In this document: positions 37,783 to 43,245 of the stretch, piece by piece
How the letters are laid out: each line of letters opens with the position of its first letter
Numbering within the stretch: position 1 is the stretch's first letter
DNA from: Candidatus Bathyarchaeota archaeon
GTDB lineage: Archaea > Thermoproteota > Bathyarchaeia > Bathyarchaeales > UBA233
Direction of reading: 5' to 3'
NCBI GenBank assembly: GCA_025057795.1
Contig: JANXEP010000068.1
Span: forward strand, 62,001-126,000
Length of the DNA stretch: 64,000 bases
The notes under the pieces: model-generated
Told to the model about the DNA's origin: nothing
Seen by the model: the letters and a program-made list of their open reading frames with translations, nothing else
Databases searched by the model: none
Program-made: the position numbers and the translations under genes

Positions 37783-38943
37783 ATGTCAGTTATGTTCTTT
37801 TCGGTTATGCGAGTGATGCTTAGCTGTAGCGAGTTGGGATTAGGGCATGTTTCAAGGCTAATACTGCTGGGGAAAAAGCTTGAAGCGAAAGGGCATGAAT
37901 TGTTTCTTTTTTCCGGCGGAGCAGCATATGAGCTTCTAAAAAGGGAGTTTAGAAACGTTTACCATTGCACACCAGTGGCTTGGTACGAAAACGCGCGCGG
38001 GATAAGTGTTTCAGCTTCGCTTTTTAACATTTTATTTCCCCTTCCATACTTTAACCGAGGAAAAGTTGAAATGAAAACTCCAAGTGGAATAGAGACTATA
38101 CACCGCTATTACGACCTCAGAAGGAATATTAGGAAAATCAGGCCGAACTTGATTGTTTCAGACGGCGATTTACATGTGCTACGTCTCGCGCATAGATGGA
38201 AATTTAGTGCAGTATACGTTACGAATGTTATTCGGCCAAGCTATCGTTTTAATCCGCTACTTATTCCGGGCGAAAGGTTTACGGAGCGTTATGTTAAAAA
38301 ATGTTCTAAAATAATAATTCCAGATAACCCGCCGCCTTACACTGTTTGCGAGTATAATTTGGGCAACTTGGACGATGCTGAGGTTAAGGATAAAGTAGAG
38401 TTTGTCGGCAGCTTCATTGACGTGACGCCTACGGAGGGTTTAGAAAACCACATTTTTGCACCAGTAAGCGGCCCTCTTGGAACAAGAGCAAAACTGAGGC
38501 GAGTTGTGATTCCAGTTTTAAGCAGACTGAAGGCTAAGAGCATAGTAAGCTTAGGAGAGCATGGAGATAAAAGCGTAACAAGAATTGGAAACTGCACCAT
38601 ATTTTCGTGGTTATCGACTCAAGAAAGGCATGAGTTTATGGCAAACGCTAAACTGGTGATCTTCAGCGGAGGGCACGCGACATGCTTTGAAGTCATTAAA
38701 CATGTAAAGCCGAGCATTTGTATTCCAACACAGCCTGAGCAATGGGCGAATGCAAAGAAAATGCAGGATATGGGATGCTCCATGATTGCGGAAAACAGAA
38801 CGCAGTTGGCGCAGGCGATTCAAGAAATGGAGGAGAAAACAGAGTTTTACAAGCGTAACATGAAAAGATTAAACCAGTACTCGTGCAAGTTTAAAGGTGT
38901 GGAAAACGCTGTAAAAATAATTGAAGCTGCTGCGGGTTCTTAA
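37783..38943 (+). CDS. GT-B glycosyltransferase, MurG/GT28-like
   Basis: 386 residues. The N-terminal SCSELGLGHVSRLILLGKKL carries the Gly-x-Gly-His nucleotide-sugar-transferase loop, and the C-terminal IFSGGHATCFEVIKHVKPSICIP is the GT28-type donor-binding motif with GGH. No membrane helix is predicted. The acceptor is unknown; lipid or protein glycosylation is likely in archaea. Several in-frame starts exist (37783, 37795, 37807); the last gives the usual N-terminus. The end overlaps the convergent AMMECR1 gene by four bases. Confidence 0.78.
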   Translation: MSVMFFSVMRVMLSCSELGLGHVSRLILLGKKLEAKGHELFLFSGGAAYELLKREFRNVYHCTPVAWYENARGISVSASLFNILFPLPYFNRGKVEMKTPSGIETIHRYYDLRRNIRKIRPNLIVSDGDLHVLRLAHRWKFSAVYVTNVIRPSYRFNPLLIPGERFTERYVKKCSKIIIPDNPPPYTVCEYNLGNLDDAEVKDKVEFVGSFIDVTPTEGLENHIFAPVSGPLGTRAKLRRVVIPVLSRLKAKSIVSLGEHGDKSVTRIGNCTIFSWLSTQERHEFMANAKLVIFSGGHATCFEVIKHVKPSICIPTQPEQWANAKKMQDMGCSMIAENRTQLAQAIQEMEEKTEFYKRNMKRLNQYSCKFKGVENAVKIIEAAAGS

Positions 38944-39581
38944 CCCTGCATGGGGAGAGCTTTCCTCTTAACTTCACCTTTCGGTTTTTCCTCTTCAAAG
39001 ATTATGGCTTGAAACTTGTAAATCTTCGTGTCTTTTAAAAGCCAGCAGTCAGGGGGCAAACCAGCCTTGACGCAGCATTGACATAGAAACTCCTCCTCAT
39101 CCCAATTCCATTCCACGGGCACTTGAGGCAGAAGCAACCCCTTGTAAAAGCCCCTTTCAACGATTAGCCCGTCTAACCCCACTTTGATTTTAGAAGGGTA
39201 TTCGCTTGCTTTCTCCACGTTTATAAGCTGTGGGGGTGTTAAAACGCTTACTTCAAAAATTACCTTGTCTAATTCGCTTAGGGAAAGCGGGTAAAAACGC
39301 GGGTCTTGAGTTGCAGAACTTATGGCAGAGTCGATTACCGCTTTGGCTAGCGGAGTGGTTGGATAGGGGTAGCCAATGCATCCCCTAAGCTCTTTTTCGC
39401 CGTTTTCAACGCTGTTTATTGTAACGAAAACTCCGCAGGGCTGCATCAACTTTTCCGGCAAGCCTTCCGGTACCTTCAAATGCCTTCTATTTTTCAAATA
39501 TTCTTCAACAGCGCTGCGGGCAAGCTTAACGAGAGTTTTTCCTTCCTCTAGGCTTAAATCAAATGGCAAGTGTATGCTCAC
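38940..39581 (-). CDS. AMMECR1 family protein
   Basis: 213 residues from GTG 39581. The hallmark ELRGCIGYPYP (LRGCIG) is present, with VFVTI before it and a Cys pair later (FLCQCCVKAGLPPDCW). The family is universal in archaea and eukaryotes, but its biochemical role is not established. It is next to the proteasome beta gene, 32 bases downstream of its stop and on the same strand. Confidence 0.92.
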   Translation of the reverse strand: MSIHLPFDLSLEEGKTLVKLARSAVEEYLKNRRHLKVPEGLPEKLMQPCGVFVTINSVENGEKELRGCIGYPYPTTPLAKAVIDSAISSATQDPRFYPLSLSELDKVIFEVSVLTPPQLINVEKASEYPSKIKVGLDGLIVERGFYKGLLLPQVPVEWNWDEEEFLCQCCVKAGLPPDCWLLKDTKIYKFQAIIFEEEKPKGEVKRKALPMQG

Positions 39582-39613: not shown

Positions 39614-40234
39614 TTAGAACTTCATCGACTCTTCGCGGGTTCCATCCTTGGTTATAAGAAGGAAGTCGATGCCGTCTCCGCTCATTATGTCTCTGCTTAT
39701 GGCTGATTTCACCGCTCTAATAACAAGCTCTTTTCCTTCTTCTATGCTTAAGCCTTCCTTATAGCTTTCTTCAAGAACCCCCATTGCGATCTCCGCTCCG
39801 GAACCCACAGCGGCGAATTTGTCAGGGATTACCGAGCCTAAAACGTCCAGCACATAAAGAGAAGCGCCTTCGTCGTCTATTCCTCCAATGATTGTTTGGG
39901 TTATTAAGGGTGCCAGCCTGTTAGCGAAAAGCAGGTTAGACATGAGTTTGGCGACAGACCTGACGGAAATTGGTCTACCAACATCCATGTTGTACAGGTT
40001 CGCGTAAGCCTCCACTTCCCTAACTAAAATTTGCATGTCAGAAACTAGACCCGCGCATGCCGCACCGATATAGTCAGTGATCCTGAACACTTTTTTGCCG
40101 CCGCGGCTGACAACCAAATAGCCGTATGAAACACGTTTTTCAGATGCAAGTATAACTCCATCTCTGCATACTATACCGACGGTTGTTGCTCCAGGAATTG
40201 CCAAGTTTTGGTACTGTTGCCCATCTCTTTCCAT
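39614..40234 (-). CDS. psmB: Proteasome beta subunit with Ala at the Thr1 position (predicted inactive)
   Basis: 206 residues from ATG 40234, with AGGTG six bases upstream; GTG 40243 is a less likely start. Beta subunits form the inner rings of the 20S proteasome and normally mature to expose a catalytic Thr1 in the sequence TTTVG. Here the segment reads PGATTVGIVCRDGV. Aligned without gaps on V4-G5, Glu17 (ASEKR) and Lys33 (GGKKVF), position 1 is Ala16 of the precursor (codon GCA). Glu17, Lys33 and the SGSG-like GSGAE region are otherwise kept. The 15-residue N-terminal extension looks like an uncleaved propeptide. Either a second active beta subunit exists elsewhere, as in Sulfolobus, or this gene is diverged. 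Confidence 0.93.
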   Translation of the reverse strand: MERDGQQYQNLAIPGATTVGIVCRDGVILASEKRVSYGYLVVSRGGKKVFRITDYIGAACAGLVSDMQILVREVEAYANLYNMDVGRPISVRSVAKLMSNLLFANRLAPLITQTIIGGIDDEGASLYVLDVLGSVIPDKFAAVGSGAEIAMGVLEESYKEGLSIEEGKELVIRAVKSAISRDIMSGDGIDFLLITKDGTREESMKF

Positions 40235-42339: not shown

Positions 42340-42879
42340 TTATTTTTTGGCTTTCTGTTCAGCGGTGACAGCGTTCTGCAAATAAGCGTTTGTCACCATT
42401 TCCAAAAGTTCCCTTTCCTTCTTGCGTTTCCTCCTTGCGTGAGCATCGACAGCGAACATTAGGACATAGGGTATGAGAAGGTAAACTATCGCTATGAAAG
42501 GATTTTTTAGGAAAACGGCTAAGCTTAAAAAACGTTCGACGGGTACCCCTCCATACGCCTTTAGGACATCGTAAGCTATGAAAGCCAAAAACGTCAAGGT
42601 TAAACAAACTAGAAACTGGATGAGAACGCTTCGTTCCTTCCCAAGCATGATTGATGGGATGACTGATGAAAGAACAAAGACCCATGCAAAGGCAAATACG
42701 AAATTTATCATGTCCACCCTTGAAGTCAACCATGTGCCAAGGAAAGGCCAAAACATGTTGATGTAACTAACCAGTGTTGTAACTGCCACATGCGTGAACA
42801 TCTGATAGCTGACCATCAGAATCCAGGCGACTGAAATATACAGAGGGGTTCCCCAAGCTATTTTTCCCAAGCTTCCCAC
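42340..42879 (-). CDS. Four-helix membrane protein of unknown function
   Basis: 179 residues from GTG 42879. Predicted helices at about 12-35, 57-79, 84-105 and 126-144, followed by a very basic cytoplasmic tail (HARRKRKKERE). I do not recognise a family. It lies 36 bases downstream of the plus-strand-overlapping SAM hydrolase start region and 81 bases from the third MoaD gene on the same strand. Confidence 0.6.
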   Translation of the reverse strand: MGSLGKIAWGTPLYISVAWILMVSYQMFTHVAVTTLVSYINMFWPFLGTWLTSRVDMINFVFAFAWVFVLSSVIPSIMLGKERSVLIQFLVCLTLTFLAFIAYDVLKAYGGVPVERFLSLAVFLKNPFIAIVYLLIPYVLMFAVDAHARRKRKKERELLEMVTNAYLQNAVTAEQKAKK

Positions 42880-42960: not shown

Positions 42961-43245
42961 TTATCCACCATGTAAAACTGGGACAAAAACAACTTCATCT
43001 CCATCTTTCAGAACAGTTTCTAAACCGTTTAGGACGCTTATCTCCTTTCCATTAACAATTATCAGGCTGTTGGGCCTCACATCTCCAAGTTCTGGATCAA
43101 TTAACGCTTTCTGCAACGCGGGAAACTCATTAATGATCTTCTCCACCGCCTCCCTTAAGGATACTGGAGACTCAAACTTCAAGGCTATTTTGCTCTTTCT
43201 CGACATATTGCGGAAACCGCCGAGAAACTTAAACGTCACAACCAT
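42961..43245 (-). CDS. MoaD-like (ubiquitin-like) sulfur carrier, third copy
   Basis: 94 residues ending VFVPVLHGG with the Gly-Gly tail. The beta-grasp pattern MVVTFKFLGGFRNMSRK, FESPVSLREAVEKII and VLKDGDEVVF is clear. Unlike the two other copies it is not next to an AOR gene, so it could be the housekeeping MoaD for the MoaE at 26221, or a SAMP-type protein modifier or tRNA-thiolation carrier. It lies 21 bases after the glycerate kinase gene on the same strand. Confidence 0.85.
   Translation of the reverse strand: MVVTFKFLGGFRNMSRKSKIALKFESPVSLREAVEKIINEFPALQKALIDPELGDVRPNSLIIVNGKEISVLNGLETVLKDGDEVVFVPVLHGG

Follow-up and report, generated by a model that had tools for sequence, protein, structure and literature searches.

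The closest described system is the 20S proteasome of Sulfolobus acidocaldarius, in which the alpha subunit (Saci0613) has been combined with two different beta subunits, Saci0662 and Saci0909. In the available text of that study (PMC4569737), alpha and full-length Saci0662 co-purify in a complex that is unstable on gel filtration, whereas alpha and truncated Saci0662 give a stable, inactive complex of 28 subunits. Saci0909 by itself failed to pair with alpha; with all three proteins an active complex forms, in which Saci0909 is present at the lower ratio. Equivalent threonines were reported in both beta subunits. For archaea more broadly, the accessible portion of the MEROPS 2017 account (PMC5753285) lists a second beta subunit for Pyrococcus and for Sulfolobus, credits Asgard archaea with additional subunits, and draws speculative rings in which active and inactive subunits are mixed. 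The accessible passages of PMC8665760 and PMC12909875 do not treat a dead archaeal beta subunit. Within the open-licence PubMed Central literature, as far as its text was available, neither a statement of a conserved lineage with Ala at position 1 (Ala1) across Thermoproteota and Asgard archaea nor an experiment on a bathyarchaeal proteasome was found.

The window analysed here, that is the whole stretch of 64,000 nucleotides from a Candidatus Bathyarchaeota contig, contains a gene that encodes, with a probability of roughly 0.87, a catalytically inactive beta subunit belonging to a 20S proteasome with both dead and active subunits in its beta rings. Judged by its sequence, this beta is the orthologue of Saci0662 and part of what looks like an old lineage of non-catalytic betas in mixed-ring 20S proteasomes. 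The gene and its critical codons are the following:

39614..40234, minus strand: predicted non-catalytic proteasome beta subunit (A1-type, Saci0662-like), a precursor of 206 aa with the ATG at 40234 and the stop at 39614
40190..40234, minus strand: N-terminal extension of 15 residues in the position of a propeptide, ending in Pro-Gly (PG at -2/-1; pLDDT)
40187..40189, minus strand: codon GCA, Ala at position 1 in the place of the catalytic Thr (sequence and structural register)
40139..40141, minus strand: codon of Glu17, a kept active-site residue (alignment)
40091..40093, minus strand: codon of Lys33, a kept active-site residue (alignment; Lys in 169 of 171 non-Thr1 subunits)
39689..39691, minus strand: codon of Asp166, a kept active-site residue (alignment; Asp in 170 of 171 non-Thr1 subunits)

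The ORF starts with MERDGQQYQNLAIPG-ATTVG... and contains the motif PG-ATTVG, in which position 1 is Ala16 of the precursor (GCA at 40189-40187, minus strand). The register is free of gaps, with V4, G5, Glu17 and Lys33 at their standard places and Gly47, Ser129, Asp166 and Ser169 likewise. The protein belongs to the archaeal proteasome beta subunits by its TIGR03634 score (239.5 bits, cut-off 224) and matches PF00227 with 184 bits (cut-off 22.4, E 3e-54); the Thr at position 1 that defines a catalytic, threonine-protease beta subunit is replaced by Ala. Its best sequence match in the PDB is 6z46_H (E 1.8e-52), and the best Foldseek match of its AlphaFold model, which has the beta fold (mean pLDDT 84.8, residues 1-14 below 50), is 6z46_V (E 7.2e-20), from the entry entitled 'Structure of the S. 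acidocaldarius 20S proteasome (Saci0613/Saci0662)'. When the structural register is read from the first and last aligned residue of each match, residue 16 of the model (Ala1) starts on residue 1 of a solved beta chain in 35 of the 50 structure matches listed; 8cvt_N pairs it with chain residue 2, and the remaining matches start elsewhere or are numbered otherwise. A wrong register for Ala1 is rejected on the gap-free alignment and on the fit of the model to the solved chains. The sequence-only reading had claimed PGATTVG with Ala (GCA) at position 1, and this is borne out by the alignment, by the structural register and by the homologues described below.

A comparison with the Sulfolobus protein can be made through L131, a gene whose product is 98.9% identical to 6z46_H over the compared stretch and reads EELP-A-T-A-I-G. 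The match begins at the T, which is residue 2 of the chain, though an A precedes it in L131, and the threonine taken as T1 in Saci0662 most likely corresponds to position 2 in the present register. The Saci0662 complex would then be dead because of Ala1. Like the bathyarchaeal beta, L131 has Ala1, Thr2, Glu17 and Lys33, and its genome also holds a Thr1 beta (L196). The bathyarchaeal beta differs in being 46-48% identical to the listed 6z46 chains and in having Pro-Gly before Ala1, where L131 has Leu-Pro; residues -2/-1 are PG in 119 of the 163 Ala1 subunits collected. With the Thr1 betas (Saci0909 and the Thermoplasma, Archaeoglobus and Methanocaldococcus chains) it shares the fold and the other active-site residues, but it has Ala for Thr1 and sits across a strongly supported branch from them. 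Ala at position 1 is also known from the yeast T1A mutants (5cz5, 5fg7, 5cz7), where it is present by design, whereas here it is the state across sampled genomes of two phyla.

The branch just mentioned comes from a beta tree built on the columns from position 6 on, with the Thr1 motif left out. It parts 105 non-Thr1 rows from 133 Thr1 rows (SH-aLRT 99), and no Thr1 row lies inside the non-Thr1 side. The Methanocaldococcus and Archaeoglobus chains fall on the Thr1 side, and the bathyarchaeal beta, without Thr at position 1, falls on the side of Saci0662 (SH-aLRT 99; 100/99 in a subset tree). Its proposed loss of Thr1 and its resemblance to the inactive beta of crenarchaea both hold. The subset tree was made from a random 34 genomes (79 rows, with 13 long-branch loci excluded beforehand); it separates 36 non-Thr1 from 43 Thr1 rows with support 100/99, and 100% of its 200 bootstrap trees need one change at position 1. 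Because a single branch separates the two classes, Thr1 was lost, or gained, once on this unrooted tree. Independent loss of Thr1 in Asgard archaea and Thermoproteota, represented by a tree in which all Asgard betas of the subset are held together, has a log-likelihood lower by 97.6 (AU p 5.2e-05) and is rejected under that model. On the dead side, rows from Asgard archaea and from Thermoproteota are intermingled, in many places at weakly supported nodes, and the dead beta may therefore have been transferred between phyla.

An active partner with TTTVG had been expected elsewhere in the genome. Within the window none was found: a search with one active-type (Thr1) beta returned this gene alone with a value better than E 0.1. 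The expectation is confirmed in relatives: 35 of the 80 related loci were taken to genome level, and among the rows retrieved from these 35 genomes every genome combines a single Ala1 beta with one or two of the Thr1 type (TTTVG). An extra Ala1 gene of one assembly (L018, on another contig than L006 in G004) is outside this tally and possibly comes from binning. A wider census covered 61 Thermoproteota genomes (the phylum to which G033 belongs, its locus L076 bearing the title Thermoproteaceae; completeness 90 requested) and 39 Asgard genomes (the phylum to which G032 belongs, its locus L075 bearing the title Sigynarchaeota; completeness 85 requested), the phylum labels being taken from these two titles. 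All 61 Thermoproteota have exactly one beta without Thr1, and 60 of them have a Thr1 beta as well; in the other, G048, the dead beta and an alpha-level match alone were found, which reflects perhaps a missing contig or else a real absence. Among the Asgard genomes, 33 of 39 have one non-Thr1 beta (an alpha-like row from G115 excluded) and all 39 have a Thr1 beta. The census suggests that Thermoproteota and Asgard archaea as a rule encode one dead beta together with one or two active ones.

The six Asgard genomes without a dead beta are G109, G115, G121, G125, G129 and G132, and in all of these except G109 the single beta directly adjoins an alpha-type gene. A beta beside an alpha-type gene also occurs in the Asgard genome G102, which bears a degenerate non-Thr1 beta. 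Two degenerate Asgard betas of this kind, L309 and L333, have Ser at position 1, and L309 has Ala instead of Lys33. In 16 of the 61 Thermoproteota genomes (e.g., on contigs G074:C4, G059:C3, G047:C8 and G077:C45) the dead and an active beta were seen, by eye, on one contig within about 15 kb, and 13 of these 16 pairs appear, again by eye, to be divergently transcribed.

The gate of the 20S proteasome is formed by the N-termini of the alpha subunits, and the gating role that the sequence-only reading had considered for the dead beta finds no support in the present results. By orthology with the Sulfolobus subunits, the bathyarchaeal beta would pair with the alpha ring and fill many, perhaps most, of the beta positions, and proteolysis would come from Thr1 subunits built in beside it. 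It should be unable to cut its own propeptide, and because an Ala1 subunit cannot process itself, the extension of 15 residues would either stay in place or be trimmed by a neighbouring Thr1 subunit, in which case maturation could depend on an active neighbour. The unstable complex with full-length Saci0662 and the stable one with the truncated form fit this proposal. For eukaryotes, a 2026 review (PMC13022661) states, in the text available, that the propeptides of the dead subunits beta6 and beta7 are removed on assembly.

Rather than serving as a constant scaffold, the dead beta might be an alternative or regulatory subunit that acts through its dosage, by reducing or retuning the number of active sites in each ring, for instance under stress. 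The unequal ratios of Saci0662 and Saci0909 in the reconstituted complex (available text of PMC4569737) speak for such a role, as does the remark in the accessible part of PMC13022661 that archaea raise alternative subunits in response to conditions. We nevertheless consider it unlikely, in view of a non-Thr1 beta in every sampled Thermoproteota genome and of the fact that in S. acidocaldarius it was the dead subunit, and not the active one, that co-purified with alpha (PMC4569737, available text).

The preferred reading, a non-catalytic beta in a mixed ring, was examined further in a comparison of 171 non-Thr1 subunits (Ala 163, Gly 4, Ser 4) with 156 Thr1 subunits, for which all rows were used after deduplication within genomes. 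The full set of [DE]17, K33, G47, [ST]129, D166 and [ST]169 is retained by 162 of the 171 non-Thr1 and by 143 of the 156 Thr1 subunits. Position 129 is looser on the non-Thr1 side (Ser in 111 and Thr in 58 of 171) than on the Thr1 side, where all 156 have Ser, and two rows with Ser at position 1 (L217 and L222, the next after L131 to the Sulfolobus chain) have Val at position 17. Over 103 rows of the non-Thr1 side, the codon of position 1 requires 45 third-base changes, with 2 first-base and 3 second-base changes. Since the active-site residues are kept and the codon changes are mostly at the third base, the dead site is not decaying. Purifying selection on a site that is complete in all other respects could point to a function that goes beyond scaffolding, and the absence of the nucleophile alone, with the rest of the site kept, raises the question of what that site is for.

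Another alternative is that the beta is active through a different nucleophile, such as Thr2, after processing one residue further on. Position 2 is indeed Thr in 159 of the 171 non-Thr1 subunits, and the Sulfolobus authors counted Thr1 in both betas (PMC4569737, available text), in Saci0662 most likely the Thr at position 2 of the present register. This alternative is hardly credible, and it is rejected: in the other 12 non-Thr1 subunits position 2 is occupied by Ala, Val, Cys or Leu while all 156 Thr1 subunits have Thr there, truncated Saci0662, whose first residue is most likely that very Thr, assembled without activity (PMC4569737, same text), and in the 35 of 50 listed matches the model sets Ala, not Thr, on residue 1. 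The claim of Ala1 thus stood up when the next Thr was considered as the nucleophile.

The alignment with related archaeal betas that had been proposed as a check gives a uniform picture. Among the nearest 120 of 6524 homologues the motif is ATTVG in 113 and ATTIG in 7, and Ala is at position 1 in all 80 related loci (80 kept of 83); the nearest homologues with a named source are from Candidatus Bathyarchaeia or Bathyarchaeota, as are most titles of the 80 loci. The position-1 codon in the 163 Ala1 genes is GCA in 66, GCC in 45, GCG in 27 and GCT in 25. By comparison, TTTVG is present in 117 of the 120 listed Archaeoglobus-type betas, and the other 3 are unmatched by the pattern. Because Ala1 is found in the nearest 120 homologues listed and in the 80 loci, and is written with each of the four Ala codons, a base error is not the explanation. 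Nothing was found in favour of a sequencing or assembly error or a decaying pseudogene, which can be given practically no weight and is rejected, as the ORF is also intact with a ribosome-binding-site-like stretch 5' of it (judged by eye) and the position-1 codon shows 45 silent against 5 non-silent base changes.

Like the subunit proposed here, the eukaryotic dead betas (beta3, beta4, beta6 and beta7) are non-catalytic members of a mixed beta ring, and a common origin was considered: a mixed dead/active beta ring in the Thermoproteota-Asgard ancestor, with the dead site selected since, and eukaryotic beta6 (perhaps beta3) descended from the dead lineage instead of arising by loss of Thr in eukaryotes. 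Taken together this is quite improbable. A mixed ring of ancestral age would place the first dead beta subunits before the origin of eukaryotes.

Plain profiles of dead and Thr1 betas, made from the columns from position 6 on, assigned held-out archaeal rows correctly in 40 of 40 cases. With them, the dead model outscores the Thr1 model for yeast beta6 by 11.6 bits (25.1 when all rows are from Asgard archaea) and for yeast beta3 by 5.6 bits (2.2 with the Asgard rows); yeast beta4 favours the Thr1 model by 9.1 bits (4.7 with Asgard rows only), yeast beta7 favours the Thr1 model by 4.4 bits and, with Asgard rows, the dead model by 2.9, and the active beta1, beta2 and beta5 favour the Thr1 model by 19-33 bits. 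In a second profile method the eight beta6 sequences ('all' set) range from 0.1 to 18.6, and from -13.1 to 6.8 when 43 active-site columns are masked, with column-bootstrap shares of 0.20-0.65 for beta6 and with yeast beta3 at -6.1; the preference of beta6 for the dead model largely goes once these columns are masked.

In trees with four beta6 sequences, whether or not the active site is masked, these attach to the branch that joins the two archaeal sides, and the grouping of the A1 rows with the four beta6 has support 98/93, beta6 being a long branch on a long inner branch. When the yeast subunits are placed singly, beta1, beta2, beta5 and beta4 join the Thr1 side and beta3 lands within the A1 side, in searches that are unconverged because constrained trees were better than free trees (AU p 0.55-0.75). 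A quick tree that includes the seven yeast betas speaks against the beta6 link, as the A1 rows form one side without any yeast row (99) and the yeast rows lie among the Thr1 rows on very long branches. Thus, beta6 is drawn towards the dead archaeal lineage in some tests (the profiles and the four-beta6 trees), while in the seven-beta tree, unlike what a shared origin would lead one to expect, no yeast beta joins that side.

The genes near the dead beta include three that deserve mention:

38940..39581, minus strand: AMMECR1-family gene, directly downstream of the dead beta (PF01871)
42340-42879: gene without a Pfam match, between the Urm1/ThiS-like gene and the SAM hydroxide adenosyltransferase gene
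42961-43245, minus strand: Urm1/ThiS-like ubiquitin-like protein with a terminal Gly-Gly (PF09138, E 5e-10), located 2.7 kb upstream of the beta gene

In 64 of the 79 loci that have room for it, the AMMECR1-family gene keeps its place and strand relative to the beta gene, with which it is perhaps co-transcribed; in the other 15 loci with room (L061-L064, L067-L073 and L075-L078) no AMMECR1 match was found. According to the available text of PMC4569737, Urm1 is degraded by the active Sulfolobus proteasome, and a connection of the Urm1/ThiS-like neighbour with the proteasome is suggestive. Sixteen of the 80 loci, including the Thermoproteales locus L077, have a match to this protein; not all of the 80 extend far enough to reach it.
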